Shown here: piece by piece, positions 9,361 through 55,497 of the stretch
Layout of the letters: every line of letters begins with the position of its first letter
Position numbering within the stretch: position 1 is the stretch's first letter
Assembly: GCF_000165485.1 (NCBI RefSeq)
Contig: NC_014623.1
Span: forward strand, 3,305,501 to 3,369,500
From: Stigmatella aurantiaca DW4/3-1
GTDB lineage: Bacteria > Myxococcota > Myxococcia > Myxococcales > Myxococcaceae
Direction: 5' to 3'
Length of the DNA: 64,000 bases
Program-made: the position numbers and the translations under genes
Notes under the pieces: generated by a model
What the model was told of the DNA's origin: nothing
The model's input: only the letters and a program-made list of their open reading frames with translations
Databases searched by the model: none

Positions 9361-9362
9361 CA

Positions 9363-10816: not shown

Positions 10817-10847
10817 GCCAGATAATGGTCAGGTGATCGCTGAAGAA

Positions 10848-10871: not shown

Positions 10872-10879
10872 GTTTTCAT

Positions 10880-25732: not shown

Positions 25733-25820
25733 CGCAGTGCCTCTGACAGGGTGGGGCTTCTCGCCCCCCGCGCTCCCAGGGTCGCACGAAGACAGCAGAA
25801 GACGTATCGTGCTCCCTTCC

Positions 25821-28560: not shown

Positions 28561-28563
28561 GTC

Positions 28564-36304: not shown

Positions 36305-36433
36305 GTCGAGGTGTCTCGCCCGAGCGGGCGTGAACGGCACCTCCTCCGCATCTTCTGTCAGCGGTATTTTCACTCCACCTGAAGGGTGCCGCACTCCGTG
36401 CAGGCCCCTGCGTCAAGGAAAGCTCTCATACAC

Positions 36434-36775: not shown

Positions 36776-37002
36776 TGGACGGTGGGGGGCCCTCCTGGGA
36801 ACTGGGCGGTCCCCTGCGTGGCGCTGTCCTGGCAGGCAGGCGGACAGGGGGCGGCCCTCGCTATCGCCATGTCTGGACGAGGCGAATAGGGTGGCCGTCG
36901 GTGGTGTCTCCGCCCAGCGAGCAGCAGCTGGGTGGTCCGAAGACGAGGACGCCCCGGGAGAAGCTGCGTGCCGTTGCCGCTCGCTGAAATGGGGGAAGGG
37001 CC

Positions 37003-39000: not shown

Positions 39001-39070
39001 CCGGGTACCGCCGCTTGGGAGGCTTCCCGGGGGCCTCGGCGTTTCGGGGGCGGGGCGGTAACATCGTGGG

Positions 39071-39877: not shown

Positions 39878-39886
39878 AGCGTCCTC

Positions 39887-40258
39887 ATGATGGATCGTGC
39901 TGAGAAACTTCTCCCTTGGCAGTGGAAGCTCTACGCGGGCAACCACGCCGCGCGCCGCAACCTGCTCCTGCACATGCTGTCCGTCCCTGTGTTCCAGCTC
40001 GGCACGGTGGCGCTCGTCACCGCGCCTTTCACCTCGCTGATGTGGGCAATCCCCGGCGTCGTGGCCATGGTGGGGGCAGTGGCGGTTCAGGGACGCGGTC
40101 ACCGGGGGGAGCCCGTCGCGCCAGTGCCCTTCCTCGGGCCCTGGGATGTGGTCTCTCGCATCTTCGCGGAGCAGTGGGTGACGTTCCCCCGCTTCGTGCT
40201 GTCGGGAGGGTTCGCCCGCGCTTGGCGCTCGGCGGGTTCTGCCCCCACGGCCCGGTGA
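39887..40258 (+). CDS. Small membrane protein, possibly Mpo1/DUF962-like
   Basis: A 123-residue protein with two hydrophobic spans (LLLHMLSVPVFQLGTVALVT near residue 28 and LMWAIPGVVAMVGAVAV near 50) and a conserved-looking C-terminal part (GHRGEPVAPVPFLGPWDVVS, FAEQWVTFPRFVL). The N-H-x3-N-x3-H order near the first span and the later H/E-P pattern recall Mpo1 (DUF962) 2-hydroxy fatty acid dioxygenases, but I cannot confirm the four histidines. It lies 9 bases after the AraC gene. Confidence 0.55.
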   Translation: MMDRAEKLLPWQWKLYAGNHAARRNLLLHMLSVPVFQLGTVALVTAPFTSLMWAIPGVVAMVGAVAVQGRGHRGEPVAPVPFLGPWDVVSRIFAEQWVTFPRFVLSGGFARAWRSAGSAPTAR

Positions 40259-40264
40259 GGAGGC

Positions 40265-41539
40265 CTATGGGGGGGCGAGCTGTGTGAGCTTCTCGAGGAG
40301 GCCCGAGCGCTGGAGCCACAACATGAGGGCGAAGTTGACGGTGTTGAAGGCCGCGTGGGCGAGCATGACCGAGGGCAGGCGAGCGCGGTGGACGAAGACG
40401 AAGCCGAACCAGGCCCCAAGCAGGGCGGTCTGAAGGACGGCGAGGGTGCCCTCGTAGACGTGTCCCAGCCCGAAGAGCGCGGCGGCCAGGATCACCGCCG
40501 CGTGCCAGTGTCCTCCCAGCACCCCCCGCAGCCGTGGCACCAGGAAGCCCCGGAAGGTGAGTTCCTCGAAGCCGGTGACGAGCACCATCATCAGGGCGAA
40601 GGCGGGCACCCCCAGCCCCGTCTCCACGAGCGAGGAGGCCACCTCCCGGCGGGCAGCCATCTCCTGGCCAGAGAGCTTGAGGAGCGCGCCCAGGGCGGCC
40701 AGGGGAAGGGACGCGGCGATGTGGACGGCGTACGTGCCGGCAAACACGGGGATTCCCCAGAGCAACTCGCGTCCGAGCCCCGCGCGCGCAAGCCCGACCT
40801 GTGCAGGGCCCTGGCCGTTGCGCCATAGCAGCAGGGCCACGAGCAGGCTCATTCCGAGCGCCCGGATGCACAGCCAGGTCATGGCCTCGCCTTGGAAGGG
40901 CCGGGTTTTGCGCGAGGGGCCCACGGAGACGGTCACCTCGCGCACCTCGCCCGCGCGCTCCAGGGTGAAGCGCAGCGGCGTGTCCTGGCCGCCTCCGGCC
41001 TCGCGCACGCGCGTCTGAAAGTCCAGCTCAGGTTCGGTCACGGACAGGGGTGTCCCGTCCACGGCGAGGATGCGGTCCCCCACCTCGAGCAGCCCGTCGG
41101 CTGGCAGCCCCGGCTTCACGGAGGTGAGTTCGATGCCTGCCCCGGAGGGTTGGGTGTGGGTGACCCCCAAGCGGGGAGGGGGCGCGGGCACCTCCATGAA
41201 CCAGGCGCTTCCTATCGAGGCCCCGAGCGCCAGGGGCCACAGGAGCACCGTGGCCACGGCCTGAGCCCGTTGGCCCGCGCGCCACGCCGTCCAGGGGTGC
41301 AGCAGGGCAAGCCCCCCGAGCGCCAGCACGCCCGTGACAGCCACCAGGGGGCCGCGTCCCAGGGCGCCGAGGTTCGCTGGAAGGAACACGGTGGCAAGCA
41401 CGAGTGCCACTTCGGCCAGGGCCCGCCCCCGGCGAGGGGCGTTGTCACAGAGGGGAGCGGCAAGGGGTGCGGCGTCGAGCACGGTGCATTCCACGGGTGA
41501 GGAGCTTGCTGCACGAGGGCTCCAGGGAGTCCGGGCCAT
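40265..41539 (-). CDS. CPBP-family intramembrane protease with N-terminal PDZ domain
   Basis: About 424 residues from ATG 41539 (MARTPWSPRAA). Two to three N-terminal membrane spans, then a PDZ-type segment (GAGIELTSVKPGLPADGLLE VGDRILAVDG near residue 135), more spans, and the CPBP/CAAX protease motifs EELTFRGFLVPRLRG (EExxxR) near 330, FGLGHVYEG near 365 and HAAFN near 398. CPBP proteins cleave within or near the membrane or act in membrane-protein maturation. The PDZ-CPBP combination is uncommon and suggests substrate tethering by C-termini. No operon partner on this strand. Confidence 0.88.
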   Translation of the reverse strand: MARTPWSPRAASSSPVECTVLDAAPLAAPLCDNAPRRGRALAEVALVLATVFLPANLGALGRGPLVAVTGVLALGGLALLHPWTAWRAGQRAQAVATVLLWPLALGASIGSAWFMEVPAPPPRLGVTHTQPSGAGIELTSVKPGLPADGLLEVGDRILAVDGTPLSVTEPELDFQTRVREAGGGQDTPLRFTLERAGEVREVTVSVGPSRKTRPFQGEAMTWLCIRALGMSLLVALLLWRNGQGPAQVGLARAGLGRELLWGIPVFAGTYAVHIAASLPLAALGALLKLSGQEMAARREVASSLVETGLGVPAFALMMVLVTGFEELTFRGFLVPRLRGVLGGHWHAAVILAAALFGLGHVYEGTLAVLQTALLGAWFGFVFVHRARLPSVMLAHAAFNTVNFALMLWLQRSGLLEKLTQLAPP

Positions 41540-41776
41540 GCTAGGCCATCTGGAGGCGGGGGGCCGCGTGGAGGCCGATGACCAATGGCTTGCCATACTC
41601 TGTGCCATGGCCAATCGCCCGCGGACCGTCGGCCTTGCGGATGCCATTGCATGAATGGGAAGCCTCGCTCCTCTTCGCGCATGAGTATTTTATAGGTGCG
41701 CAATTCAAGCTTATGGCGTACAAGCGGATTTTGGTTGCCGCCCTGGTGCCAGCGAGATCCTGCCGCCACTGCCCCC

Positions 41777-42634
41777 ATGCTCCGCCCTCGCCTCTACCTG
41801 CTGGGTGCCGCCGTGCTCTGGTCCACGGCTGGTGCCGCCATCAAGCTGTCCACCCTCAACGCCTATCAGCTTGCATCCGGGCGCTCCCTGATCGCTGCCC
41901 TGGTGCTGTTCCTCCTCTTTCCGGAAGGTCGCCGCCGTCCCACCCTCCGGATGTTGAGCGTGGCGGCAGCCAGTGCAGCCACGGTGGTACTGTTCATCTT
42001 CGCCAACAAGCTCACCACCTCCGCCAACGCGATCTTTCTTCAAGACACAGCGCCCCTCTATGTCTTGCTCCTCTCCCCGGTGCTGCTGCGGGAGCGGCCT
42101 TCACGCGGTGAGTGGGTGGCTGTCCCCATCTTCTTGATAGGCCTGAGCCTGTTCTTCTTCGACCAGCTCTCGCCAGGGCAACTCCAAGGCAACCTCGTCG
42201 CCATGGGGTCGGGTGTGGCCTTTGCACTCACCATCCTGGGGATGCGCGCGGCCAGCACGGAGGGCTCTGCCATTCTCATCTGGGGCAACCTTCTGGCGGG
42301 ACTTGCCTTTCTAGGGCCCGCCCTGAACAGTCCCATGCCCACCCTGCTGGATATCGCACTGCTCGCTTTCCTGGGCATTTTCCAGCTGGGTATGGGCTAT
42401 GCCCTCTTCTACCGGGGCCTGCGCGACGTTCCCGCGGTGGAGGCCTCGCTGTTGGTGCTCCTGGAGCCCGTGCTCAACCCGGTGTGGGCTTTCCTGGTGG
42501 CGGGCGAGCAGCCCGGCCCCTGGGCACTGCTCGGCGGAGGCATCATCCTGCTGGCCACCGCGTGGCGGACCCTTCTGGGGGTCCGCGGTCCTGGCGCCGA
42601 GCCTCCTCCTGTCCCAGTGCAGGACAAGGCCTAA
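41777..42634 (+). CDS. EamA/DMT-family transporter
   Basis: A 285-residue membrane protein with ten predicted spans in two EamA repeats (LYLLGAAVLWSTAGAAIKLS at the N-terminus, AMGSGVAFALTILGMRAAST at the start of the second repeat). It ends with PVWAFLVAGEQPGPWALLGG GIILLATAWRTLL, a typical DMT finish. ATG 41777 is chosen because the family begins with the first span; the longer frame adds 27 unlikely residues. Family members export amino acids, nucleosides or metabolites. It precedes the ACP cluster on the same strand but is separated by 326 bases, so a link is possible but unproven. Confidence 0.9.
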   Translation: MLRPRLYLLGAAVLWSTAGAAIKLSTLNAYQLASGRSLIAALVLFLLFPEGRRRPTLRMLSVAAASAATVVLFIFANKLTTSANAIFLQDTAPLYVLLLSPVLLRERPSRGEWVAVPIFLIGLSLFFFDQLSPGQLQGNLVAMGSGVAFALTILGMRAASTEGSAILIWGNLLAGLAFLGPALNSPMPTLLDIALLAFLGIFQLGMGYALFYRGLRDVPAVEASLLVLLEPVLNPVWAFLVAGEQPGPWALLGGGIILLATAWRTLLGVRGPGAEPPPVPVQDKA

Positions 42635-42960
42635 TACAGACGTCGGCGGTTCCAGGTGCTCCGGGCGAGCGGCGCCGCGCCAATGCAATGACTGATGCGC
42701 CAATCAGTGATGCCAGAGCACATCGCGGAAAAGCCGTGAAATTGGAGCAATGCTGAAATGCGTCAAGTGATGAACATTCTGATTGAACTTGGCGTTTGTG
42801 CTGGCATACTCCGCCCGTAAAGACGCAATCCCGGGAAGGCACCGGCTTCAGCCGGTGAGGCCGCAGCATCACCCGTTGCGGATGGGTTTCGCACCCACAC
42901 TGGAGTGGAGCCAATCACAGCCCTGGGAGGGTTTTCCGCTCCCGATGGCAGGGCAGGGCC
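42635..42960 (+). other. 326-base leader region upstream of the ACP cluster
   Basis: No gene is seen. The first half is lower in GC. At 42840-42857 CACCGGC-TTCA-GCCGGTG forms a perfect 7-bp hairpin, and GGGTTTCGCACCC further on could form a smaller one. I looked for known riboswitch cores and did not find one. A promoter and structured leader for the YbaK-ACP operon are the likely content. Confidence 0.35.
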
Positions 42961-43440
42961 ATGCCTGATTTGAGCGAGTTTCTGACACGGGAGCAGGTGG
43001 CGGCGCAATTGCTGACATTGGCCACGCCCATGACAACGGCGGCGGCGGCGGCGAGGGAGCTGGGCATTCCGGTGGGAGGGATTTTCAAGTCCCTGGTATT
43101 CACCACGGACACGGACGAAGTGCTGGTGGTTGTCTTGCCGGGAGACCGACGTGTGGACTTCAAGGCGGTGGCGCGGGTGGCAGGCTGCCGCAAGGTGGCG
43201 TTCGCGAGCCCCGCCCGGGCGCTGGAGGCGACGGGTTACCCCCCGGGCGGCACGCCGCCGCTGGGCTACCCCCAGCCGCTGCGGGTGTTCGTGGACGAGG
43301 CGCTCCTCCAGTACGCCCAAGGCTACGGCGGCGGGGGACGGCCCGAGCTGCTGTTGCGGCTGACGCCCCAAGAGCTGCTGCGTGTGACGAAGGGCACCGT
43401 GGGTGCCTTGAGCATTCCAACCGAAACATCGATCCCCTGA
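42961..43440 (+). CDS. YbaK/EbsC-family aminoacyl-tRNA deacylase
   Basis: A 159-residue protein of the YbaK fold: TREQVAAQLLTLATPMTTAA, GIPVGGIFKSLVFTTDTDEV with the catalytic-type Lys near residue 43, VVVLPGDRRVDFKAVARVAG and GGTPPLGYP near 94-102. Family members remove amino acids from mischarged tRNAs. Its stop is 15 bases before the ACP start, so it seems to be the first gene of the biosynthetic operon. It could protect against an amino-acid-like intermediate of the pathway, or be a chance neighbour. Confidence 0.85.
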   Translation: MPDLSEFLTREQVAAQLLTLATPMTTAAAAARELGIPVGGIFKSLVFTTDTDEVLVVVLPGDRRVDFKAVARVAGCRKVAFASPARALEATGYPPGGTPPLGYPQPLRVFVDEALLQYAQGYGGGGRPELLLRLTPQELLRVTKGTVGALSIPTETSIP

Positions 43441-43455
43441 AACGAGGACTCAGCC

Positions 43456-43728
43456 ATGCAGGAAGAAGTCTCGAAAAGCCTCAAGAAGATCCTGACAACC
43501 AACCTCTTCGTGGAGATTCCCGAGGAGCAGATTGGCGGAGATGACGGGCTTCAGTCCGTTGTCGGCCTGGACTCCGTGGGGTTTCTGGAGCTGCGGGTCA
43601 TCTGCGAGGACCAGTTTGGCGTGAGCATCTCCGATGAGGACTTCGACGCGGAGAACTTCCGCACCGTCAACTTGCTGTCGGCGCTCATCGTGAAGCTGAA
43701 GGCCCAGCAACAGGGGAGGGCGAAATGA
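43456..43728 (+). CDS. Acyl carrier protein
   Basis: A 90-residue acidic ACP with the 4'-phosphopantetheine Ser40 in GLDSVGFLEL, the DSx motif followed by helix III (VSISDEDFDAENFRTVNLLS). The C-terminus is basic (KLKAQQQGRAK). GAGGACTC precedes the ATG. It overlaps the aminotransferase by ATGA. It is the obvious carrier for the cluster that follows. No phosphopantetheinyl transferase is in the window, so one must be supplied elsewhere. Confidence 0.93.
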   Translation: MQEEVSKSLKKILTTNLFVEIPEEQIGGDDGLQSVVGLDSVGFLELRVICEDQFGVSISDEDFDAENFRTVNLLSALIVKLKAQQQGRAK

Positions 43729-45122
43729 AAGTGCCTGTGGCGGGAGAGACCTTGGGCGCTGGCGAGCTGGCCCGGCTGCGTGCCGGTCTGGCTTTGCAGA
43801 TGGACCACTATGGCGGTGGGCGCCTGCCCTTCGTCTGCCTCCAAGCGCGGGGGCTCGTGCAGCACATGGCGGCGCTGGAGGGGCCGGACGCCGGCCGCGT
43901 GGTCGAGGTGATGGACGCCAGCGGCGGCTACGCCAGCGCCTGCCTGGGCGCGGGGCATCCGCGCATGCAGGAGGCGCTGCGCGAAGGGCTGGAGCGCACG
44001 GGCTACGTCACGGACGAGCTGGGCTCGCTGGAGCGCATCCTGCTTCTGGAGGAGCTGTTCGGGCCCCAGGGCCGGTGGGCGGACCGCTTCCCGGGGAATG
44101 CCTACCACGCGAGCGGGCGCAACTCGGGCTCGGAAGGCTTGGAGCTGGCGTTGCGGCTGGTGCTGGAGTCGGGTTTCGACCGGCGCCGGCTGGTGCCGAA
44201 GCCCGAGCGCGCGGAGCGGCGGACAATCCTCGCCTTCGAGGGCGCCTGGCACGGCTGGACGCAGGGGCTGGTGAGCCTGCTCAACCGCCGGCACTACCGG
44301 ATGGGTCTGCCACTGCCCGCCACGGAGGGCCCCGCGGGGCTGGACGTGCAGTTCCTGCCGTTCGGTGAGGCGGCACACCTGGAGTCGTTCTTCGCGGAGC
44401 ACGGGCGCAAGCTGGCGGCGGTCTTCGTGGAGCCCATCCAGGGAGATGCCGGCATCCTGGTTCCTCCGGTGGGTTACCTGCGTCGGCTGGCCGCGCTCTG
44501 CCGGGAGCACGAGGTGTTGCTGGTGGCGGACGAGGTGCTCACGTTCGCGAAGACGGGCCGTTTCTTTGGCATGACGGACGAGCAGGGCCCCATCCCCACG
44601 GACATCACCGTCATCGGCAAGAGCCTGGGCATGGGCGTTGTCTCCACGTCCATGGTGATTGCCCGGCGCGAGCTGTCGGTGCGCTCCAGTGGCGCGGTGT
44701 CCACCTCTGACTTGCGGCCCCTGACGAGCGCGGTGATGCGCGCGGGCATCCAGTACATCGCCAGCGAGGGGCTCGTGGAGCGCGCGGGGCCGCTGGGGGA
44801 GGAGCTGCGAGGGCGCCTGCGCAAGGATGTGGTGGAGGTGTTCCCAGAGCTGTTCCAAGAGGTCCGTGGCCTGGGCTACATGAATGGCATCGAGCTGACC
44901 GAGCGGTCCGCGGGGAGCTTGAGCAAGCTGCGCGCGAGGCTGCTCGAGGCGGGCATCTTCGTGGAGTTCATGGCTGGGGCGGGACGCCGCTCGCGGGGCC
45001 TGCGCTACGTGTTCCCGGCGATGCGCATCGCGCCACCGCTCATCGCGGGGGAGGCGGACCTCCAGGAGATGGTCGCGCGCCTCCAGCGCGGGGTGCGGAA
45101 GTTCGTGGAGGCGGGGTCGTGA
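43725..45122 (+). CDS. Class III PLP-dependent aminotransferase
   Basis: A 465-residue enzyme of the glutamate-1-semialdehyde/omega-aminotransferase fold. Landmarks are VVEVMDASGGYASACLGAGH near residue 60, FEGAWHGWTQG near 172, VEPIQGDAGILVPP near 237, LLVADEVLTFAKTGRFF near 265 with the PLP-binding Asp, and the Schiff-base Lys in VIGKSLGMGVVS near 302. Being coupled to an ACP suggests it aminates an ACP-bound or freed beta-keto or aldehyde intermediate; GSA-type mutase activity is the alternative. The next gene overlaps by GTGA. Confidence 0.9.
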   Translation: MKVPVAGETLGAGELARLRAGLALQMDHYGGGRLPFVCLQARGLVQHMAALEGPDAGRVVEVMDASGGYASACLGAGHPRMQEALREGLERTGYVTDELGSLERILLLEELFGPQGRWADRFPGNAYHASGRNSGSEGLELALRLVLESGFDRRRLVPKPERAERRTILAFEGAWHGWTQGLVSLLNRRHYRMGLPLPATEGPAGLDVQFLPFGEAAHLESFFAEHGRKLAAVFVEPIQGDAGILVPPVGYLRRLAALCREHEVLLVADEVLTFAKTGRFFGMTDEQGPIPTDITVIGKSLGMGVVSTSMVIARRELSVRSSGAVSTSDLRPLTSAVMRAGIQYIASEGLVERAGPLGEELRGRLRKDVVEVFPELFQEVRGLGYMNGIELTERSAGSLSKLRARLLEAGIFVEFMAGAGRRSRGLRYVFPAMRIAPPLIAGEADLQEMVARLQRGVRKFVEAGS

Positions 45123-45562
45123 CGCAGGCGGCTCCCACGGTGCCGGCGAGTGCGCCCGCGCAGCGCCGCCGGGTCGAGCATGTGGACACGGATGCCTCGG
45201 GCGTCGTGCACTTCTCCCGCTACGCGTCGATGTTGGAGACGGCGGGGCTGGAGGAACTGGAGCGGCGGGGAGCCGGGCTGGACGTGCTCTCCTTGCAGGG
45301 CCTGGACCTGCGGGTGCGGGAGCTGCGCGTCAGCTACCGCGCCGCGGCGCGCTTCCAGGACTGGTTGTTGCTGGTGCCCGCCGTGGAGCACGTCGGGCCC
45401 GCCAGCTTGAAGCTGGGCGTGAAGCTGTACCGCGAGGGCTCCGGGCCCGAGCCGTTGCTGCTCGCCTTTGGAAGTCTGGATATGGCTGTCGTCAACCGAG
45501 AAAACGGAGTGCCCGCATGTCTACCGCCGTCCCTCAGCAGCGCGCTCAAGCAGGCGCCGTGA
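45119..45562 (+). CDS. Hotdog-fold acyl thioesterase (4HBT type)
   Basis: A 147-residue hotdog protein from GTG 45119. The catalytic pattern VEHVDTDASGVVHFSRYASM near residue 17 is the D-x-G-x-V-H/Y-F signature of 4-hydroxybenzoyl-CoA/YbgC thioesterases. It probably releases the product from the ACP or edits misprimed chains. Overlaps: GTGA with the aminotransferase and 46 bases with the FabZ-like gene if that starts at 45517. Confidence 0.87.
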   Translation: MTQAAPTVPASAPAQRRRVEHVDTDASGVVHFSRYASMLETAGLEELERRGAGLDVLSLQGLDLRVRELRVSYRAAARFQDWLLLVPAVEHVGPASLKLGVKLYREGSGPEPLLLAFGSLDMAVVNRENGVPACLPPSLSSALKQAP

Positions 45563-46041
45563 GCGAAGCAGAACGCCCACCAAAGGCCCTGGGCTTCACC
45601 GCGCTGCGCCAGTGGCTGCGGCACCGCCACCCGATGATCTACCTGGATCGGATCGTGGATCATGAGCCGGGGAAGTTCCTGGACGCGCTCATCTCCGTCT
45701 CCGGCAACCTGGATTTCATCGCCGGCCATTTTCCCGAGCGGGCCATTTACCCGGGCAGCCACCTCATCCAGGCCTTCGCGCAGTCGGGCATCATCCTCTA
45801 CCAGATGAGCACGTCGATGCTGGCCGAGGACGAGCTCACGCTCATCGGCTCGGTGGAGGCGCGCTTCCTGAAGGTGGTGGTGCCAGGGGATCAGATCCTG
45901 CTGCGCGTCCAGGCCGGGCGGCTGGCGAGCGGATTGTTCCACTTCACGGGCAAGGCGCTGGTGGGCTCGAACCGGGTGGCGGCATTCCGCGCGAGTCTCG
46001 TCCGCTCCAAGATCTCCGAGCTGGGCGCCCCGCTATGGTAG
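45517..46041 (+). CDS. FabZ-like hotdog protein lacking the catalytic Glu
   Basis: A 174-residue hydroxyacyl-ACP dehydratase-like protein. ATG 45517 has GGAG 8 bases upstream; GTG 45559 (GTGA overlap) is the other option. FabZ features HRHPMIYLDRIVDHEPGK near residue 37 and GHFPERAIYPGSHLIQAFAQ near 69 are clear. In FabZ the helix after the catalytic His has Glu (LEAMAQ); here it is Gln (IQAFAQ). It may be a weak dehydratase, an acyl-binding scaffold or a different hotdog enzyme. Confidence 0.85.
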   Translation: MSTAVPQQRAQAGAVSEAERPPKALGFTALRQWLRHRHPMIYLDRIVDHEPGKFLDALISVSGNLDFIAGHFPERAIYPGSHLIQAFAQSGIILYQMSTSMLAEDELTLIGSVEARFLKVVVPGDQILLRVQAGRLASGLFHFTGKALVGSNRVAAFRASLVRSKISELGAPLW

Positions 46042-47168
46042 CGCCCGTCGTCGTCACCGGCGCGGCATGGGTGACGCCGCTGGGCAGTGGCCTGGAGGCC
46101 GTGTGGCGGCGGCTGCTCGCGGGCGAGCACGGTTTTGTCGAGGTCCCCTCGCCCCACCGGGTGCGCAACACCCTGGCGGCGGTGGTCCCGCCGGCGAGCG
46201 CCCAGGCATCGGAAGCCGCCGCGGGGCGGTTGCGGCGGCTGGCGGTGGAGACCTTGCGCGGTGCCCTGGAGAACGCGGGCATTCCCGGCGATGGGGCCCG
46301 GACGCGCTTCGTTCTGGGCACGAGCCTGGGTGCCTTCCTGGATGACGACGGCGAGCGGCAGGCGCCGCTGCACCAGTGGGCGGACGCGGTGGCGGAGGCG
46401 CTGGGCGCGCGAGTTCCACCCGTGGTGCTGTCCACGGCGTGCTCGTCCGGTTCCGATGCGCTCCTGGTGGGCGCGGAGTGCGTGCGCGCGGGTTTGGCCG
46501 ACGTGTGCGTGTGTGGGGGCGTGGATGTCCTCACGCCGAGCAAGCGGTTGGCACACTCGGCGCTGTCCACCCTGTCCCCCACGCGTCCGCGGGCCTATGA
46601 CTCGCGGCACGACGGGATGTTGTTGGGGGAGGGGGCGGCGTTCCTCGTACTGGAGTCGGCAGCGCATGCGGAGCGCCGGTCGGCGCGCGTCCTGGCACGG
46701 TTGTGCGGTGCGGGCTCCGCCAACGATGCGGCCAGCATGACGTCTCCGGATCCGGCAGCCGCGGGCGCCCGTTTGGCGATGACGCGTTCCTTGGAGGATG
46801 CGGGGCTCGCGGCCTCGGCCATTGGCCTGGTCAATGGCCACGGCTCCGCGACCCCGGTCAATGATCAGGCGGAGCGCGAAGCATTCCGGAGCGTGTTTGG
46901 TCCAAGCGGCGGGCCGCTCGTGTTCGCCACCAAGGGTGCGTTTGGGCACAGCCTGGGGGCCACGGGCGCGATGGAGGCCATCGCGCTCATCCTGGGGCTT
47001 CGGGAGGGCATCGTTCCCCCCATCGTGGGGCTGGAGCAGCCGGACCCAGATTTCCCTTGTCCATTGTCCGTGGGCGGGGCGACGCGGCACAGCGCCCAGG
47101 TGGGCCTGAGCGTGACGCTGGGCTTCGGTGGCTTTGACACGTCGCTCGTCTTCGAGGTCTCTCGATGA
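46035..47168 (+). CDS. FabF-like beta-ketoacyl-ACP synthase
   Basis: A 377-residue condensing enzyme, shorter than FabF (about 410). The complete triad is present: Cys136 in STACSSGSDAL, His in NGHGSATPVNDQAE near 268 and His in KGAFGHSLGATGAM near 304. The ending GFGGFDTSLVF is typical. It overlaps the FabZ-like gene by 7 bases and its partner by ATGA. With the Cys-less neighbour it resembles the KS pairs of type II polyketide, aryl-polyene or specialised fatty acid systems. Confidence 0.92.
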   Translation: MVAPVVVTGAAWVTPLGSGLEAVWRRLLAGEHGFVEVPSPHRVRNTLAAVVPPASAQASEAAAGRLRRLAVETLRGALENAGIPGDGARTRFVLGTSLGAFLDDDGERQAPLHQWADAVAEALGARVPPVVLSTACSSGSDALLVGAECVRAGLADVCVCGGVDVLTPSKRLAHSALSTLSPTRPRAYDSRHDGMLLGEGAAFLVLESAAHAERRSARVLARLCGAGSANDAASMTSPDPAAAGARLAMTRSLEDAGLAASAIGLVNGHGSATPVNDQAEREAFRSVFGPSGGPLVFATKGAFGHSLGATGAMEAIALILGLREGIVPPIVGLEQPDPDFPCPLSVGGATRHSAQVGLSVTLGFGGFDTSLVFEVSR

Positions 47169-47731
47169 AGCCCTCCTTCCCGGTGCTCCTGCGTGGGAGC
47201 GCGAGGGCGCTCACGGATGCGCCGAATCCCTACATTTCCCGGTGGAAGTCCTCCGTGCGCTACGCGGATCCCCTGTCCTGGGCACTGGCCCAGGCGGCCG
47301 GGGAGGCGGTAGCGCCGTTGGGTGAGGCGTTCACACGCGCAACGGACCGTTGCTCGCTCATCCAGGTGGGGGCGGCAGGGCCGCGTGAGACCTGGACACA
47401 GGTGGCGAGCGATGCCGCGCGGGGCTTTGCATCCCCGATGCGTTTCCCGGCCGCGACGCCGAGCGCACCCACGGGTTTGTCCTGCATCGTCCATGGCCTG
47501 CGAGGGCCCTCGCTGGCCCTGACGATGCCCGTGGAGACGGGCGTGGAGGTGGCGCTGACGCTGTCCTCCGCGTGGCTCGAGCGCGGGGTGGTGGATTGGG
47601 CCCTCATTGGCTCCGTGTTCGCGTCTGGCCTGGGGCCATCAGGCGCAAGCTGTGTCGTGTTGTCGCGGGGGACGGGGCAGGGCGTTGACGTGGGCTCTGT
47701 GGCGCGGGCCCTCCAATTCCAAGCGGAGTAA
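47165..47731 (+). CDS. Short ketosynthase-like protein without active-site Cys
   Basis: A 188-residue protein that matches only the N-terminal half of a KS: LSCIVHGLRGPSLALTMPVE TGVEVALTLSSAWLERGVVD WALIGSVFASG, then GPSGASCVVLSRG. Where a KS has TACASG this reads MPVETG, so the nucleophile is absent, as in chain-length factors, but the protein is half the usual length. It starts inside the KS stop codon. A regulatory or structural partner of the KS is the likely role. Confidence 0.7.
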   Translation: MKPSFPVLLRGSARALTDAPNPYISRWKSSVRYADPLSWALAQAAGEAVAPLGEAFTRATDRCSLIQVGAAGPRETWTQVASDAARGFASPMRFPAATPSAPTGLSCIVHGLRGPSLALTMPVETGVEVALTLSSAWLERGVVDWALIGSVFASGLGPSGASCVVLSRGTGQGVDVGSVARALQFQAE

Positions 47732-47733
47732 AC

Positions 47734-49143
47734 ATGGCCTCACCTCTTCTGGAACTCGCGGATGTTCCCCTGTCTTCCATCCAGGCGTTCCTGGACGGCA
47801 TCCGAGATCTGACCGGCGCGGGCGCACAGGCGGACCGCTCCGTGAAGCAGTTGGCCGCCGAGTGGATTGCGAAAGGCCTGCGGCCGGGAGACGTGGTGTT
47901 GCTGGCGCTGCCCAATGGGGCGGGCTTGCTGGCCCACGTCTTCGCGGTGCTCGCGGCCCAAGGGGTGCCCGCCCTGGTATCGCCCGCCTCGCCTGCCAGC
48001 CGTCAGCAGTCGCTGGTAGAAGCGTTGCCGGCGCGCGCGCTGGTGGCCATGCGAAGCCCCGCGCCGAACATGACGGCGGCGGAGCGGTTCTCGCTGGGCG
48101 GAGCGGAGGTGGCGCTGTTCCCTGACGCCCTGCCCCCGGGGGCGCAGCCTGGAGAGATGGTGCTGCTCACGTCCGGCACTTCGGGCTTCGCGAGCGGCTG
48201 TGTGTTCGACCTTCCCGCGCTCTTCCGCAACGCGGACCGGCACGCCGATGCCCTGGGCCTGCGCGCGGGTGACACCGCGCTGATCAACCTGCCGCTGTAC
48301 TACTCCTATTCCATGGTGGCCCAGGCGTTCTCCGCCCTGCGGCGAGGGCTGGAGTTGGTCATCAGCGGACCTCCCTTCCAGCCCGCGGCCTACTTGCGGC
48401 TCCTGGCCGAGCACGGCATCACCGTGTCCGCGTTGACGCCCCTCTTGACGCGTGGATTGCTCCAGCACGGCGAGCCCTTCCCAGAAGAGTTGCGGTGCTT
48501 GGGGGTCGGTGGAGACGTGCTCGCGCCCGAGCACGTGAAGCACATGCTGCGGCTGCGGCCGCGCGGAGAGCTGTATTTGACGTATGGCTTGTCCGAAGCG
48601 GGGCCCCGGGTCTCGACGCTCGCGGCGCACGCGGAGCCCGAGCCCCGCTTCGCGTCGGTGGGCCTCCCGCTGCCGGGCACGGAGGTATCGCTTGTTCCAC
48701 GTATCCCCGGTGGGGAACGGGAATTGTTCGTTTCATCGGATACGGTGATGAAGCGGCGCATCGGCATCGTGGAGGGGGAGAAGCTCCACGCCCTCAGGGG
48801 CCCCCAGTTGCTGGCCACGGGGGATGTGTTCGACATCGACGACGACGGCTACCTGTACTTCCAGGGACGCCTCTCCGATTTCCTGGTGCGCGGCAGCGAG
48901 AAGATCAGCATGGCTTCGGTGCGGCGGCTGGCCATGATGCTTCCCGGGGTGCTGACGGCGCGCACGAAGGTCATCCGGGGCGCGGAGGGGGACGACTACG
49001 AGGTCATGCTCACCGTGGAAGACGAGCGGTGCTCCGTGGATCACCTGTCCCGCGAGCTGTTCCGTCTGCTGCGCCTCGCCGAGCGGCCGCGCTCCGTGCA
49101 GGTGGTCGCGGCGGATCTCGCCGCAGCCTCCCTGCACAAGTAG
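47734..49143 (+). CDS. AMP-dependent acyl/aryl ligase
   Basis: A 469-residue adenylating enzyme of the ANL family. P-loop-like motif VLLTSGTSGFASG near residue 144, INLPLYYSYSMVAQAF near 185, YLTYGLSEAGPR near 277 (A5), ATGDVFDIDDDGYLYFQGRL SDFLVRGSEKIS near 366 (A7-A8). The C-terminal Lys-containing A10 segment is short. It starts 2 bases after the KS-like gene. It would activate the starter acid for loading onto the ACP. Length is slightly below acyl-CoA ligases, similar to stand-alone ACP-loading ligases. Confidence 0.87.
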   Translation: MASPLLELADVPLSSIQAFLDGIRDLTGAGAQADRSVKQLAAEWIAKGLRPGDVVLLALPNGAGLLAHVFAVLAAQGVPALVSPASPASRQQSLVEALPARALVAMRSPAPNMTAAERFSLGGAEVALFPDALPPGAQPGEMVLLTSGTSGFASGCVFDLPALFRNADRHADALGLRAGDTALINLPLYYSYSMVAQAFSALRRGLELVISGPPFQPAAYLRLLAEHGITVSALTPLLTRGLLQHGEPFPEELRCLGVGGDVLAPEHVKHMLRLRPRGELYLTYGLSEAGPRVSTLAAHAEPEPRFASVGLPLPGTEVSLVPRIPGGERELFVSSDTVMKRRIGIVEGEKLHALRGPQLLATGDVFDIDDDGYLYFQGRLSDFLVRGSEKISMASVRRLAMMLPGVLTARTKVIRGAEGDDYEVMLTVEDERCSVDHLSRELFRLLRLAERPRSVQVVAADLAAASLHK

Positions 49144-49554
49144 AAGGAGCGAAGCCCCCAGGCCGGTGAGTGCACAGGCCTGGCGTTTCGCCGTGAGTCT
49201 TGAGCCCCCGGGAGGACATCCGGCGGCGCAGCGCCTCGGTCATTCTCCTGGCTCCCCGGACAGGCAGGTGAACCCCCCTGGGGCTCCCGTTGCTGTTCAC
49301 CTCAGTCTTCACTGGGAGAGAACTTCGAGGGGCGGCCCCGGAGCCGCTGCCGGTGAGGGGTCTGCGGGGGGGGGACGCTTTATTCCTTGTGAAAGGTTCC
49401 ATGGCTTGCAGGTGGCGCGTCCGCCGTCCTACGGTCCGGCTCCGTGACGCAAAGGGAAATTCATGACCGTCGAGTCCAGGCTCTCGAACCGCACAAGCGC
49501 GAAATTCGGCGCGGGGGCAGTGGCCGGTTGTCCCTTCTCCGCTGTGGAATTCGT
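49144..49554 (+). other. 410-base gap between the ligase and desaturase genes
   Basis: No gene is supported. A hairpin CCAGGCC (49158-49164)/GGCCTGG (49177-49183) just after the ligase stop may be a weak terminator. A run of nine G is near 49367. The open frame beginning at GTG 49444 is joined to the desaturase but adds 37 arginine-rich residues, so I do not use it. Confidence 0.3.
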
Positions 49555-50421
49555 ATGACCCTGTTCCGGCACCCCCAAGACCGCATCCCCGTCCTGCTGT
49601 TTGCCTGTGTGTTCGCGCTCGACCTGACCGTGTACTTCACGGCTCAGAGCGGGTGGTTCCCGATCCTGTGGCTCGCCGTGTGCGCGATTCCAAAGGGATG
49701 GATCAGCGCATGGAATCACCATCATCAGCACGTGCCGATGTTCCGCCACGCTCTGCCCAACCGCCTCCTCGAGGTGGTGTTTGGGTTCCAGACGGGGGTG
49801 ACCTCGCACGCGTGGTTCCTGCACCACGTGCTGGGCCATCACCGCAACTACCTGGATCAAGAGAAGGACGAGTCGCGCTGGAAGCGCCGCGATGGAACGC
49901 CCATGGGGGAACTGGAGTACTCAGCCATCACGGCACTCGTGGCGTATCCGAGAGCGTTCTTCGTGGGGCGGGAACACCCCCGGGCCCTGCGCATCTTCCT
50001 GGGGATGGGCGCACTGCAACTGGTGTTGCTCGGCTTGCTGTTCTGGCACAACGCGTACAACGCGCTCTGGGTGTTCTTTCTCCCCATGTGCCTGTCCCTC
50101 TTCCTGACCGTCTGGGCCACCTATTTTCACCATGTGGGGCTCGACGCGGCGGAGCACAGCAAGGCCTCGTATAACATCCTGCACCGGGGCTACAACCTGA
50201 TGACGGGCAACCTCGGCTACCACACCGCGCACCATGCGCGTCATGGATTGCACTGGTCCCAGTTGCCCGCGCTGCATGCGCAGTTGGCGAAGGAGATTCC
50301 CGCCACACATTACCGCCAACCCGGCATTCCCTTTGTTTGGTTTGGGTCGGAGGCGAAGGTGGAGTTGAGTCCCGCGGAGATCGAGGCGGTGGCTCAGTAC
50401 CATCCGCCAGCGCATACATGA
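49555..50421 (+). CDS. Fatty acid desaturase
   Basis: A 288-residue membrane desaturase (ATG 49555, MTLFRHPQDRIPVLLFAC). His clusters: WNHHHQHVP near residue 55, HHVLGHHRNY near 90, ATYFHHVGLDAAEH near 187, GYHTAHHARHG near 222. Four hydrophobic spans are visible. It is distinct from the delta-9 type enzyme at 27688; the HHxxGHH and YHTxHH spacing is closer to the delta-12/alkane-hydroxylase-like group. Coupled by ATGA to a FabG-like gene, it likely finishes or modifies the acyl chain made by the upstream cluster. Confidence 0.87.
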   Translation: MTLFRHPQDRIPVLLFACVFALDLTVYFTAQSGWFPILWLAVCAIPKGWISAWNHHHQHVPMFRHALPNRLLEVVFGFQTGVTSHAWFLHHVLGHHRNYLDQEKDESRWKRRDGTPMGELEYSAITALVAYPRAFFVGREHPRALRIFLGMGALQLVLLGLLFWHNAYNALWVFFLPMCLSLFLTVWATYFHHVGLDAAEHSKASYNILHRGYNLMTGNLGYHTAHHARHGLHWSQLPALHAQLAKEIPATHYRQPGIPFVWFGSEAKVELSPAEIEAVAQYHPPAHT

Positions 50422-51140
50422 CCTCCCGCACCTTTCTCATTACTGGCGCCAGCAGGGGCATTGGCCGTTCGCTCTCCGAGCGGTTGGCAAGAGCTGGCCA
50501 CACCGTGGTCGGCATCGCCCGCGACGCCCGCGATGCCAGCTTTCCAGGCACGCTCGTGTCCGTTGATCTCTCTCATCGCGCCGAGACGGAAGCGGCCCTC
50601 GCCACGCTCGTCCAGCGCTATGCCTTCGATGGCGTGGTGAACAATGCCGGGCTCATCCGTCCCCAGCGGTTGGGGGAGATTGGTTTGAATGATCTCGACG
50701 CGGTGCTCCAGCTCAACCTTCACCCAGCCATCCAGACGGTCCAGGCGCTGCTGCCCACCCTGCGCGCCAAGGGCTGGGGGCGCATCATCAACATCTCCAG
50801 CCTCACCCTTCTCGGGGTGATCGAACGCACGTCTTACGCGGCCGCCAAGGCGGCGCTGGTGAGCTTCGTCCGTTCTTGGGCTCTGGAACTGGCGCAGACC
50901 GGTATCACGGTGAACTCCGTGGCACCGGGTCCTACCGAGACCGAGATGTTTCGAGCCAATAATCCACCGGGCAGCAGCGGCGAGCGCCGCTATCTCTCTT
51001 CCATTCCGATGGGGCGCTTGGGCAGACCCGAAGAAATCTCCGCCGCCATCGCCTTCCTCCTCTCGGAAGAGGCCAGCTTCATCACGGGGCAGACGCTCTT
51101 TGTCGACGGGGGCGCCTCGATCGGCAAGGCGATGCTCTGA
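50418..51140 (+). CDS. FabG-like SDR reductase
   Basis: A 240-residue SDR with all classical features: LITGASRGIGRSLSERL near residue 7, VNNAGLIRP near 77, catalytic Ser in NISSLTLLG, SYAAAKAAL as Tyr-x3-Lys near 147, VAPGPTETEM near 177 and GQTLFVDGGASIGKAML at the end. The start overlaps the desaturase stop (ATGA). A 3-oxoacyl-ACP reductase would complete the elongation cycle with the KS and FabZ-like proteins upstream. A stand-alone alcohol dehydrogenase is the alternative. Confidence 0.88.
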   Translation: MTSRTFLITGASRGIGRSLSERLARAGHTVVGIARDARDASFPGTLVSVDLSHRAETEAALATLVQRYAFDGVVNNAGLIRPQRLGEIGLNDLDAVLQLNLHPAIQTVQALLPTLRAKGWGRIINISSLTLLGVIERTSYAAAKAALVSFVRSWALELAQTGITVNSVAPGPTETEMFRANNPPGSSGERRYLSSIPMGRLGRPEEISAAIAFLLSEEASFITGQTLFVDGGASIGKAML

Positions 51141-51200
51141 AGGTTTCCGGTCCAGCGCACGCCTGCCTGGCCGCTGTCCCGCCAAGGAGGCGCGGGCGGC

Positions 51201-52232
51201 TCAGAAAGAGCCCATGCTGACCAGGCCGAAGGTGTTTCTCACGTAGTCCTGGTTGCCCAGGAACAGGCCTGACAGCACCGGGCCCGTGCGCAGCGTGGCC
51301 GTGGCCAGGAGGCGGGAGCGCGCGGTCTTCCACTGGCGGCTGAGCACCGCGCGCACGCTGTAGTGTTCCTGCTGAACCCCCGTTTCGAAGTCCGTCCAGA
51401 GGTTCGGCTCGGCCCGGCTGGAATGGACGCCCACAGACAATTCGAGCCACGACAGCCGGCCCCGCAGGTTCGTCCAGCGTGTGTCGAGAAGAAGACCCTC
51501 GGGAGTCCGCGTGGCCGCGCCTCCGATCTCGAATTGCTCGATGCGGAGGGCGGGCAGCGGCAACTCCGGCAACTGGAAGCGCGCCGCGATGTCCGCGCGG
51601 GCGTTCTGAAACCGGGGCTCGGACTGTAGCTTGAGGGACGTGTTCAGGCGTTTCTTGAGGAAGGAGCCACTCACCGTGGGAGACATCCCGAGGTGGGTGG
51701 CTTGCGCGGTGCCGAATTGGTGGATCAGCCCGAGCGCCACCACGCTGGCGGACACCACCGCCACCGGCTTGGGGATGTGGAGGTAGTCGAGCGCGGAGTT
51801 GAGCCCCTTTTGCAGCGCGCTGTCTGATCTGCTGAGCCGCAGGCCCAGGTCGCGCACTCGCAGCTGTTCTCCATCGGGGCCGAGGGAGAGGAAGGAGGCG
51901 AGGTGCCGGCCTGCCGGAAGCTCGGAGAGGGTCACATCCCGCGCTGGCTGTGAGAGCGCCTTCAGCGCATCCCTCTGCCCGTGGGAACCGGACGGCACAA
52001 AGGCCCAGGCCCGGGAGCGCACGGCGAGGGAGAGGGAGGGCGCGATGAACCCGCCTTCCAGCGCACGATCCGGGTCCGCGAATGAGAAGAGGAGTTCCTC
52101 GAAAGAAGGGCGGTCGGGCATGCTGGGCGGAGGGCCCAAGGAGCGATGGATCTCCAGCATCTCGGCCCTGGACGGGAGCGCCCAGAGTGCCACGGTGAAC
52201 ATCACCGCCCAGACTGAGGCTCCTTGGCTCAT
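51201..52232 (-). CDS. Secreted, beta-barrel-like outer membrane protein
   Basis: A 343-residue protein; ATG 52232 is chosen for the signal peptide MSQGASVWAVMFTVALWALP ending SRA. The mature part alternates polar and hydrophobic residues in many short strands (RADIAARFQLPELPLPALRI, RLSWLELSVGVHSSRAEPNL, SRLLATATLRTGPVLSGLFL) and ends in Phe (TFGLVSMGSF), the C-terminal signature of outer-membrane barrels. Family not recognised. It converges on the FabG-like gene, so a link to export of the cluster product is only a possibility. Confidence 0.65.
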   Translation of the reverse strand: MSQGASVWAVMFTVALWALPSRAEMLEIHRSLGPPPSMPDRPSFEELLFSFADPDRALEGGFIAPSLSLAVRSRAWAFVPSGSHGQRDALKALSQPARDVTLSELPAGRHLASFLSLGPDGEQLRVRDLGLRLSRSDSALQKGLNSALDYLHIPKPVAVVSASVVALGLIHQFGTAQATHLGMSPTVSGSFLKKRLNTSLKLQSEPRFQNARADIAARFQLPELPLPALRIEQFEIGGAATRTPEGLLLDTRWTNLRGRLSWLELSVGVHSSRAEPNLWTDFETGVQQEHYSVRAVLSRQWKTARSRLLATATLRTGPVLSGLFLGNQDYVRNTFGLVSMGSF

Positions 52233-52900
52233 TGGAGCAAAGGTGGTCAGACCTCGGCTTGCCCGCAAGGTGCCGGGAATAAATGGAGAGGCTCTGGCCC
52301 GGGGACGCGCTGGGGACTGGGTTGCGCTCCCTCTCCTTCCTGGCGGGCAAGCGTGCCTCGGACGACCCCCCTCTTGCGCGCGGGCAGGTCCGGACACAGA
52401 CCGCGTGGTTCGAGCCCTTCAGCGGTGTTGCCGCTGCTGAAAACAGACTGTATGCGTGGTGTTGGCTTGCCGGGCGGTTGTGTGGCGTTTGGCTTGAGCT
52501 GGGATCACACCGAGACAGGTCTCCAAACACTGTGCATGGATCTGACGCGCCGCGTCGGTGGTCCCGCTGTGCCGTCGCCGTTGTATTCGCCTGTCTTCCT
52601 CTCAACAACAGAGACTCGCTGTCCCGTGTTGTCAGGCTGGTGCGGTGCGTCAATTCCGGAAGAGAAATTTTTCCCAGCTTCCCCTGGAAAAAGAGAGAAG
52701 AGCGCCTGTATCATGGCGTGCCTCATCCCCCGAACCATTCACGGAAACAGAGGAGTTGCTTCAAGCGGAGCGTCGGCGAAACAAGGTTTCACCGGAACGG
52801 CGCTTCGAGCAGGGATGGGACGCAAGCCTCACCCCAGAACCCCGCCTCTCGGCGTCAATCAAAACCCGATTCATCCCATGCAGCCGTGGGAGGAAATGCA
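52233..52900 (+). other. 668-base stretch upstream of the beta-helix gene
   Basis: The frame is open from 52283 but the product would be Arg/Ser-rich without domain sense, and a good RBS and signal peptide occur only at 52901. I see lower GC toward the right, a weak TTTTTCC/GGAAAAA inverted repeat near 52675, and no recognised RNA element. It may hold a long leader or regulatory region. Confidence 0.3.
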
Positions 52901-55375
52901 ATGCTCAGAAGAGTGTCATCGAAGCTTCCCGTATGGGCCACTGTCGCCAGTTTGTGCTCGCTCTACCCGCATGTTTCAACGGCGGCAACGATTGGGGAGG
53001 CGAACACGACCATCTTTGGTCCCAAGGTGTATGTGTTCGACCCGACCATGCCGGCGGCCGACATCACCAACGTGGCCAACACCGTGTACTCCTCGCTGGA
53101 GTCCGCCGAGTTTAGCAGCCAGCGGTATGCCCTGCTCTTCAAGCCAGGCAATTACAACGTTACGTTCAACGTGGGCTTCTACACCCACGTGGCGGGTCTG
53201 GGACAGAACCCTGACAACGTTAATATCAACGGCGGCGTGAACGTGAACGCCGACTGGGACAATGGCAACGCCACCCGTAACTTCTGGCGGGCCCTTGAGA
53301 ACTTCGCCGTCACCCCCTCCAACGGCCAGACGCAGATCGCCGTGTCACAGGCCGCCCCTTTGCGACGTTTGCACATCAAGGGGGAGCTGCACCTGTTCGA
53401 CTTCGACGCGAACTGGAACGCCGGTTGGGCGAGCGGTGGATTCCTCGCCGACTCGCTCGTAGATGGCCTGGTCGTTCCCGCCTCGCAACAGCAATGGTTC
53501 TCGCGCAACAGCCGGTGGGGAGGCTGGAACAACGCGGTGTGGAACATGGTCTTCGTGGGCAGCGTCAACACGCCCGCGGCAACGTTCCCGGAGCCGCCCT
53601 ACACGGTGATCGACAGGACGCCCGTCATCCGGGAAAAGCCCTACCTCTACATCAACAACGCCGGGCAGTACAACGTCTTCGTCCCGGACCTGCAGACGAA
53701 CACGCAGGGCATCAGCTGGGCCAACGGCTCCACGCCGGGAACGTCCATTTCCATTGATCAGTTCTACATCGCCCGGCCGGAGACGGCCACGGCGGCCGCC
53801 CTCAACACGGCGCTCGGCCAGGGCAAGAACCTGCTGTTCACCCCGGGCATCTACCAGCTGAATGACACGGTTCGCATTACCCGGGCCAACACCGTGGTGC
53901 TCGGCATCGGCCTTGCCACGCTGGTGCCGACCAACGGGAACGTGGCCATGTCGGTTGCCGACGTGGACGGCGTGAAGATCGCGGGATTGACGTTCGATGG
54001 TGGCCCGGTCAACTCGCCGTCCGTCTTGGAAGTCGGCCCCACGGGCAGCTCGGCGAATCACTCGGCCAACCCCACCTCGCTGCACGACATCACGGTCAGG
54101 ACCGGTGGCGCGACCGTGGGCCGGTATGACGTGGGCATCAAGATCAACAGCAACCACGTCATCGGCGACCACTTCTGGCTGTGGCGCGCGGACCACGGTG
54201 CGGGCGCTGCCTGGAATACCAACATCTCGAAGAACGGTCTGGTCGTGAATGGGGCCAACGTGACGGTGTACGGCCTGTTCAACGAGCACCACAACGAGTA
54301 CCAGACTCTGTGGAACGGCAACGGCGGCCGCGTCTACTTCTATCAGTCCGAGATTCCCTACGACGTTCCCAACCAGGCCGTGTGGAAGAGCAAGAACGGC
54401 ACGGTGAACGGGTTCGCTTCGTACAAGGTTGCTGACTCGGTGAGCACCCACGAGGCGTGGGGCTTGGGCGTGTACTCCTACTTCCGGGATGCGGCCGTGA
54501 AGCTGGAGAACGCGATCGAGGTTCCCAACGTCGCGGGCGTCAAGCTGCACAGCATGACGACCATCTGGTTGAACGGAACGCCCGGCAGCGAAATCACCCA
54601 TGTGGTCAACGGTCTGGGGGGCCGCGTCTATGCGAACACTCCCGCTGAGGCCATGCGGCAGACCTATACCAACTTCACGGGCTCTGGTGCCGCCGACACC
54701 CAGGCGCCGAGCACGCCCGCGGGTCTGACGGCGACGGCCGTGTCGAGCAGCCAGATCAACCTGAGCTGGACTGCCTCGACGGACAATGTGGGCGTCAGCG
54801 GGTATGACATCTACCGTGGCGGCGCGCTCGTGGCTTCCTCCGGCACGAACTCGTTCAGCAACACGGGGCTGTCGCCCTCGACGGTCTACAGCTACACGGT
54901 CCGGGCGAAGGATGCGGCCGGGAACGTTTCGGCCGCCAGCAACACCGCGAGCGCCACCACGCAGCCGGGTGGCAGCACGGGTTCGCCGCTGGCGCGGACC
55001 GGATGGACCGCCACCTCGTCGCCGACGAGCGGTGAGCCCGCGTCGGCCCTGCTGGACGGCAACATGGCCACGCGCTGGACCACGGGCGTGCCGATGGCGG
55101 CTGGCCAGACGCTGACCGTGGACATGGCGGCCTCGAGAACCTTCAACAAGATCGTGTTGGATGCCACGGGCAGCGACCTGGACTATGCCCGCGGCTATCA
55201 GATTCACGTGTCGACCGACGGGACGAACTGGGGCAGCGCCATCGCCACCGGAACGGGCACCGGGCCGGTGATCACGGTCACCTTCACGGCGAGGTCCGCC
55301 CGCTACATCCGGGTGACGCAGACCGGGACGAACTCGAGCTGGTGGTCCGCTCGCGAGTTCAACGTGTATTACTAA
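52901..55375 (+). CDS. Secreted beta-helix protein with FN3 and F5/8C domains
   Basis: An 824-residue secreted protein: AGGA at 52891, ATG 52901, signal peptide MLRRVSSKLPVWATVASLCS ending near STAA. Residues 30-585 are Asn/Gly/Val-rich with beta-helix character (IFGPKVYVFDPTMPAADITN, RYALLFKPGNYNV, LLFTPGIYQLNDTVRITRAN, DGVKIAGLTFDGG, NHVIGDHFWLWRADHG). An FN3 domain (about 598-685) and a discoidin-type F5/8C carbohydrate-binding domain (about 690-824) follow. Similar actinobacterial proteins are often misnamed adenylyl cyclase. Most likely it binds or degrades a polysaccharide; the exact enzyme class is not clear. Confidence 0.82.
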   Translation: MLRRVSSKLPVWATVASLCSLYPHVSTAATIGEANTTIFGPKVYVFDPTMPAADITNVANTVYSSLESAEFSSQRYALLFKPGNYNVTFNVGFYTHVAGLGQNPDNVNINGGVNVNADWDNGNATRNFWRALENFAVTPSNGQTQIAVSQAAPLRRLHIKGELHLFDFDANWNAGWASGGFLADSLVDGLVVPASQQQWFSRNSRWGGWNNAVWNMVFVGSVNTPAATFPEPPYTVIDRTPVIREKPYLYINNAGQYNVFVPDLQTNTQGISWANGSTPGTSISIDQFYIARPETATAAALNTALGQGKNLLFTPGIYQLNDTVRITRANTVVLGIGLATLVPTNGNVAMSVADVDGVKIAGLTFDGGPVNSPSVLEVGPTGSSANHSANPTSLHDITVRTGGATVGRYDVGIKINSNHVIGDHFWLWRADHGAGAAWNTNISKNGLVVNGANVTVYGLFNEHHNEYQTLWNGNGGRVYFYQSEIPYDVPNQAVWKSKNGTVNGFASYKVADSVSTHEAWGLGVYSYFRDAAVKLENAIEVPNVAGVKLHSMTTIWLNGTPGSEITHVVNGLGGRVYANTPAEAMRQTYTNFTGSGAADTQAPSTPAGLTATAVSSSQINLSWTASTDNVGVSGYDIYRGGALVASSGTNSFSNTGLSPSTVYSYTVRAKDAAGNVSAASNTASATTQPGGSTGSPLARTGWTATSSPTSGEPASALLDGNMATRWTTGVPMAAGQTLTVDMAASRTFNKIVLDATGSDLDYARGYQIHVSTDGTNWGSAIATGTGTGPVITVTFTARSARYIRVTQTGTNSSWWSAREFNVYY

Positions 55376-55401
55376 GGCATCGGTTGTCGATGCTTGCAGC
55401 G

Positions 55402-55442
55402 CAACGGCCTTGCTTCAGAAGTCCTCTGAAGCAAGGCCGTTG
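55402..55442. terminator. Strong 18-bp hairpin, likely terminator
   Basis: CAACGGCCTTGCTTCAGA (55402-55419) pairs perfectly with 55425-55442 around the 5-base loop AGTCC, 27 bases after the beta-helix gene stop. No long T-run follows, so it may act with other factors or in RNA stability. Confidence 0.6.
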
Positions 55443-55497
55443 TACGTCCAGCCAGGCCGCTCTAAGAACGCGGTGTCCAAGCGACCAGGAGCACGGC

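Follow-up and report, generated by a model that had tools for sequence, protein, structure and literature searches.

Genes of the amc operon

The window analysed here, a stretch of 64,000 nucleotides of the Stigmatella aurantiaca DW4/3-1 genome (contig NC_014623.1, positions 3,305,501 to 3,369,500), contains a compact operon which resembles the amcB-amcH genes for the biosynthesis of the antifungal compound cispentacin and which starts with a gene predicted to encode a tRNA-editing enzyme (tedit; Table 1). The original prediction for this region listed genes for an acyl carrier protein (ACP), a class III aminotransferase, a thioesterase, a FabZ-like protein, a ketosynthase (KS), a Cys-less KS-like protein and an AMP-ligase, coupled by overlaps or 2-base gaps. 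All seven genes were recovered in this order on the plus strand, joined by overlaps of at least 4 bases and one 2-base gap. The cluster had been taken to begin at position 42961, and a gene does start there; however, this gene is not the ACP gene but tedit, which had not been mentioned. It lies 15 nt upstream of the ACP gene and apparently opens the transcript which the two genes share.

Table 1. Features of the amc island and its downstream flank (positions in the window).
Feature	Coordinates	Strand	Evidence
amc island, absent from the same place in the sister genome G095	41503..49340	.	blastn
EamA/DMT-family transporter, candidate cispentacin exporter	41696..42634 (probable start ATG near 41777)	+	PF00892 1.7e-31
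tedit, predicted INS-superfamily trans-editing aminoacyl-tRNA deacylase (ProXp-x/YbaK-like)	42961..43440	+	PF04073 2.8e-30
amcB homolog, acyl carrier protein (Ser40)	43456..43728	+	NF058660 108.9 bits (cut-off 80)
amcC homolog, class III omega-aminotransferase (PLP Lys299)	43725..45122	+	NF058664 738.5 bits (cut-off 600)
amcD homolog, 4HBT-fold thioesterase (product release)	45119..45562	+	PF03061 7.3e-11; synteny
amcE homolog, FabZ-like hot-dog decarboxylase (His71)	45517..46041 (real start possibly a few codons 3' of 45517)	+	NF058663 251.4 bits (cut-off 140)
amcF homolog, ketosynthase (Cys136-His269-His305)	46035..47168	+	NF058662 514.9 bits (cut-off 325)
amcG homolog, Cys-less KS-like cyclization factor (CYF), 188 aa	47165..47731	+	NF058659 109.8 bits (cut-off 80)
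amcH homolog, 2-oxoglutaryl-ACP ligase	47734..49143	+	NF058661 552.5 bits (cut-off 370)
Fatty acid desaturase, conserved flank	49555..50421 (reading frame opens 49444; conserved start ATG ~49555)	+	PF00487
SDR (FabG-like), conserved flank	50418..51140 (reading frame opens 50337)	+	NF005753 324.5 bits

According to an NCBIfam profile search six of the seven core proteins (AmcB, AmcC, AmcE, AmcF, AmcG and AmcH) score above the Amc cut-offs, which are the curated equivalog thresholds of NCBI. The AmcD homolog weighs against this picture in that no Amc-specific NCBIfam model matched it; its assignment is based on its fold and on synteny, a 4HBT protein holding the amcD position in essentially all clusters found. 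Furthermore, an alignment of 53-54 loci showed conservation of at least 95% for S40 of AmcB, K299 of AmcC, H71 of AmcE and C136, H269 and H305 of AmcF, and D269 of AmcC as well as D25 and H31 of AmcD were likewise conserved. The structural model of AmcG (mean predicted local distance difference test score, pLDDT, of 75) found its top match among solved structures in the ishigamide chain length factor (6kxe_B, E 5.7e-5), which is in line with the proposal that AmcG acts as a cyclization factor (PMC10698177).

Approximately 50 loci in Myxococcota, Actinomycetota, Bacillota and one gammaproteobacterial metagenome-assembled genome (MAG) carry all seven genes with an identical arrangement, a recurrence far beyond chance. 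The Bacillus cereus producer was not among the loci recovered by the searches. With respect to its biosynthetic identity, and to this only, we are highly confident that the operon represents a cispentacin-type, type II polyketide synthase (PKS)-like amcB-amcH cluster. The cluster itself is a further member of an already described kind, and Corallococcus and Stigmatella have previously been named as bearing cispentacin-type clusters (PMC10698177). The statement in the original prediction that no cluster of this composition was recognised among those described is incorrect; high similarity to a characterised cluster such as those for aryl polyenes had been named there as a refuting result, and such similarity was found to the cispentacin cluster rather than to aryl polyene clusters.

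The locus shares the seven genes, their operonic order and the catalytic residues with amcB-amcH of the amipurimycin cluster in Streptomyces sp. SN-C1 (PMC10698177), but it lacks the nearby nucleoside and peptide genes and forms instead a small island with an EamA transporter gene and an adjoining tRNA-editing gene. The ACP, hot-dog enzyme, KS, CYF and ligase encoded by cfa1-cfa5 for coronafacic acid in Pseudomonas syringae are homologous to AmcB, AmcE, AmcF, AmcG and AmcH (PMC10698177); however, clusters of the coronafacic acid type lack the aminotransferase AmcC and the thioesterase AmcD, both of which are present here.

The pathway to cispentacin ((1R,2S)-2-aminocyclopentanecarboxylic acid) has been rebuilt in vitro with purified proteins (Hibi et al. 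2023, PMC10698177), and amcB-H alone gave approximately 200 mg/L of cispentacin in S. albus (PMC10698177). The biochemical steps were established for the homologs (PMC10698177) and are inferred by homology for this strain. AmcH would adenylate 2-oxoglutarate and load it onto the ACP AmcB, whereupon AmcF and AmcG would perform a single elongation with malonyl-AmcB (one C2 unit) followed by cyclization. After decarboxylation by AmcE the ring double bond would be reduced by the FabI of the host, a homolog of which is encoded in the genome (G000:C1:8221130-8221879 in the genome of the window; 40% identity to E. coli FabI, E 1e-45). AmcC would then introduce the amino group from ornithine or lysine, and AmcD would hydrolyse the thioester to release free cispentacin. 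The earlier assumption of starter loading, extension, amination and release agrees with the reconstituted pathway, whereas the amino-lipid or amino-polyene proposed as its outcome does not, the predicted product being a small cyclic beta-amino acid.

The tRNA-editing gene at the head of the operon

While the biosynthetic cluster is known, the editing gene in the operon is new here. The nearest solved structures of its product are 1wdv and 2cx5, and its structural model (pLDDT 92.7) gave Z scores of 24.6 to 2z0k (Thermus ProX with AlaSA), 24.5 to APE2540 and 23.6 to YbaK 1dbx. The entry 2CX5, which is the same Thermus protein as 2z0k (TTHA1699), has been classed as ProXp-x, an enzyme clearing non-proteinogenic aminobutyrate from tRNAs charged by the prolyl-, valyl-, leucyl- and isoleucyl-tRNA synthetases (ProRS, ValRS, LeuRS and IleRS; PMC11295145). 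Tedit shares with the ProXp-x/YbaK deacylases the INS fold, Lys43 and the motif TGYxxGGxxPxG, the residues K43, G96, G97, P100 and G102 being invariant or almost so (alignment A1). It differs from them in forming a separate clade linked to amc operons, which in the tree lies apart from the housekeeping YbaK and on the ProXp-x/APE2540 side of the YbaK split (support 98/97), several long branches being uncertain.

Members of the close tedit clade (57-100% identity) were detected in 12 of 195 Myxococcota genomes, in all 12 immediately upstream of amcB. These genomes belong to four genera, and the surroundings of their amc clusters are of several kinds. The gap to amcB amounts to 14-26 nt in ten of them; it is 41 nt, or replaced by an overlapping start, in G099 and depends on the chosen start in G065 (7 to 181 nt). 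The twelfth genome (G086) was not caught by the amcE search and apparently corresponds to a Myxococcaceae MAG locus (L048) with an interrupted amcE. At this locus the amcE match covers 83 aa only and the spacing is shifted, giving a broken or misassembled appearance; the remaining amc genes seem to be undamaged.

Editing genes were also found next to amc genes outside the Myxococcota. Polycladospora coralii (Bacillota) has a single stand-alone tRNA_edit gene in its genome, and this is the last gene of its amc operon. At approximately 5.3-8.1 kb after the start of amcC (L051) the operon continues with genes for a type II thioesterase-like protein, an EamA protein, a nitroreductase-like protein and the tRNA_edit protein. 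In Couchioplanes caeruleus a tRNA_edit gene lies 4.4 kb upstream of amcC (L049 5555-6049); this genome encodes a ProRS of family I as well as one of family II. A rough Poisson estimate gave p 0.018 for at least two such co-locations among 28 non-myxobacterial loci. A single origin of all amc-linked editing genes was rejected since the copies of Couchioplanes and Polycladospora fall outside the myxobacterial clade, although the long branches leave their placement unsure.

Cispentacin is an antifungal, proline-like beta-amino acid which is taken up via proline permeases, its reported fungal target being IleRS, and its analogue BAY 10-8888 is a competitive IleRS inhibitor (PMC10698177, PMC9293202, PMC5877770). 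Taking into account these antimetabolite properties and that the cluster in this genome comes without a resistant copy of IleRS or ProRS, a deacylase clearing cispentacinyl-tRNA appears to be the most economical reading of tedit. We tentatively propose, regarding the question as close to balanced, that tedit may protect the producer by hydrolysing cispentacin mischarged on tRNA(Pro/Ile) and may thereby take the place of a resistant synthetase. A functional analogy is offered by the canavanyl-tRNA(Arg) deacylase CtdA (PMC10018355), likewise a stand-alone editor protecting the cell from an antimetabolite amino acid; CtdA, however, has an unrelated B3/4 editing domain and occurs in a canavanine user instead of in the operon of a producer.

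Resistant synthetases were considered as an alternative route of self-resistance and rejected. The IleRS copy number is independent of amc, a genome of the genus Corallococcus without amc (G077) having the same set, and ProRS is a single-copy family I enzyme in ten of ten Myxococcaceae sampled. No synthetase copy is listed at the amc locus of the Stigmatella genome. As a separate observation, the genome of the window (G000) and its two sister genomes G095 and G096 lack the higher-scoring of the two IleRS types common in the sampled Myxococcaceae and keep the other one, a pattern which does not track with amc.

Several observations weigh against the proposed role in self-protection. About 13 of the 25 amcE-positive Myxococcota genomes, with clusters of Myxococcus, Pyxidicoccus and Citreicoccus, do not carry tedit, nor do most actinobacterial amc clusters. 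The editing copy of Couchioplanes caeruleus has Asn at the position of the conserved Lys43 and therefore carries less weight, and a literature search gave no report of cispentacin being attached to tRNA. Tedit could thus also be an ordinary proofreader of Cys-, Ala- or aminobutyryl-tRNA whose position in the operon is unrelated to cispentacin, an explanation we regard as possible but rather doubtful. INS-superfamily genes are common, with one to six per genome in all genomes sampled, and the ProRS of the host belongs to family I and lacks an INS domain, so that stand-alone editors would be generally useful; the amc-positive myxobacteria without a linked tedit fit this explanation as well. Nevertheless, the host already keeps two other tRNA_edit genes, a housekeeping YbaK copy and a third paralog. 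The restriction of the close clade to amc loci across genera and cluster contexts, the separately derived editing gene in the Polycladospora operon and the rough estimate for the co-locations likewise speak against ordinary proofreading.

End product and transporter

Free cispentacin is the most likely end product, since the window, in contrast to the majority of amc loci in other myxobacteria, lacks a non-ribosomal peptide synthetase (NRPS) or tailoring module: none was found among the large open reading frames (ORFs) scanned in the window, nor was an amide-bond enzyme. The closest sequences, those of the Corallococcus and Archangium amc clusters (AmcC identity 81-90%), show the same linkage of tedit and amcB. 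However, their operons extend upstream with genes for HpcH/HpaI (CitE-like), alpha-oxoamine-synthase-like, MaoC and MDR reductase proteins and in general have an NRPS gene as a neighbour, an arrangement seen in most other Myxococcaceae amc operons, whereas neither was present among the genes scanned here.

It seems unlikely that the cispentacin made by the amc genes of Stigmatella goes into a peptide formed by a distant NRPS instead of being released. The genome is rich in PKS genes, with dozens of PKS KS domains, and cispentacin could be used by an NRPS at another place in it, which weighs against the free compound as the end product. The amc operon of most other Myxococcaceae adjoins a C-A-T NRPS gene, in many cases together with the upstream module, and amipurimycin is itself a peptidyl nucleoside (PMC10698177). 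In contrast, the island consists of the EamA gene, tedit and amcB-H only, and AmcD would provide hydrolytic release.

The module of CitE-like, alpha-oxoamine-synthase-like, MaoC and MDR reductase genes was observed upstream of amcB in Corallococcus, Archangium, Myxococcus and Pyxidicoccus (L079, L086-L098, L062), and related module genes occur in the actinobacterium Lentzea xinjiangensis. This module, often accompanied by an NRPS gene, represents an uncharacterised cispentacin-containing product family.

The EamA protein would export cispentacin. Such a role is plausible because EamA-type genes recur near amcH, namely in Couchioplanes, two Streptomyces, Kutzneria, Polycladospora and a myxobacterium (G065). 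According to blastn the island copy is 87% identical on the DNA level to a resident paralog which is conserved in the genus (G000:C1:3885264-3886104), and it looks like a recent duplicate thereof.

Boundaries and origin of the island

The sister genome G095 belongs to the same genus and lacks amc. Positions 36403-41502 and 49341-55448 of the window are adjacent in this genome (L167 3970-7703, then 7723-13645; blastn), so that the intervening segment of approximately 7.8 kb appears as an island. The desaturase-FabG pair, which had been counted with the cluster, does follow downstream; however, it is separated from amcH by a gap of approximately 300-400 nt, joins the upstream flank directly in one block in G095 and was found beside none of the other amc clusters. 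Based on this synteny and the missing linkage the pair was placed outside the cluster and rejected as a source of tailoring enzymes.

A type II PKS of the aryl-polyene or highly reducing kind yielding an amino-polyene or amino-lipid, with the desaturase-FabG pair as tailoring enzymes, is most improbable and was ruled out by the Amc family assignment and synteny: the gene types are superficially alike (ACP, FabZ-like, 4HBT, KS, KS-like partner and AMP-ligase) and highly reducing type II PKSs have a KS to which AmcF is related (PMC10698177), but the Amc equivalog models win by wide margins, the KS partner is of the short, Cys-less AmcG type instead of a full-length chain length factor, and the only nearby ketoreductase-like gene lies in the conserved flank outside the island.

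On the DNA level the operon is 85% identical to that of Corallococcus. AmcC shares 90% identity with its Corallococcus counterpart compared with 82% for the host ProRS, while the relation is reversed for Archangium (AmcC 81-82%, ProRS 86%). This incongruence favours a horizontal gain and suggests that the amc operon was acquired by Stigmatella, rather than lost from G095. A location of amc on plasmids was discarded since tblastn with AmcC gave none, and a promoter and terminator scan revealed nothing beyond chance.

Elsewhere in the window (25515-29505) an ORF of 726 aa with a KAS III C-terminal domain and a haem-oxygenase-like (iron redox) domain is followed by genes for a fatty acid desaturase (27688-28560) and for a protein with DUF6999 (28564-29505). 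This may be a further small locus for the biosynthesis of a fatty-acid-derived compound.

The amc operon of Stigmatella represents a known pathway to a clinically studied antifungal scaffold in a minimal and apparently mobile form without NRPS partners, and it is a good candidate for the formation of free cispentacin by a myxobacterium. If the proposed role of tedit is true, cispentacin would act at least partly by tRNA charging, which bears on the question whether inhibition is its only mode of action or whether it is mischarged as a substrate as well. Proofreading of tRNA would then be used as antibiotic self-resistance, a route recruited more than once (in Myxococcota and Bacillota), and a linked editing gene may serve in genome mining as a marker for clusters making tRNA-directed amino acid antimetabolites.

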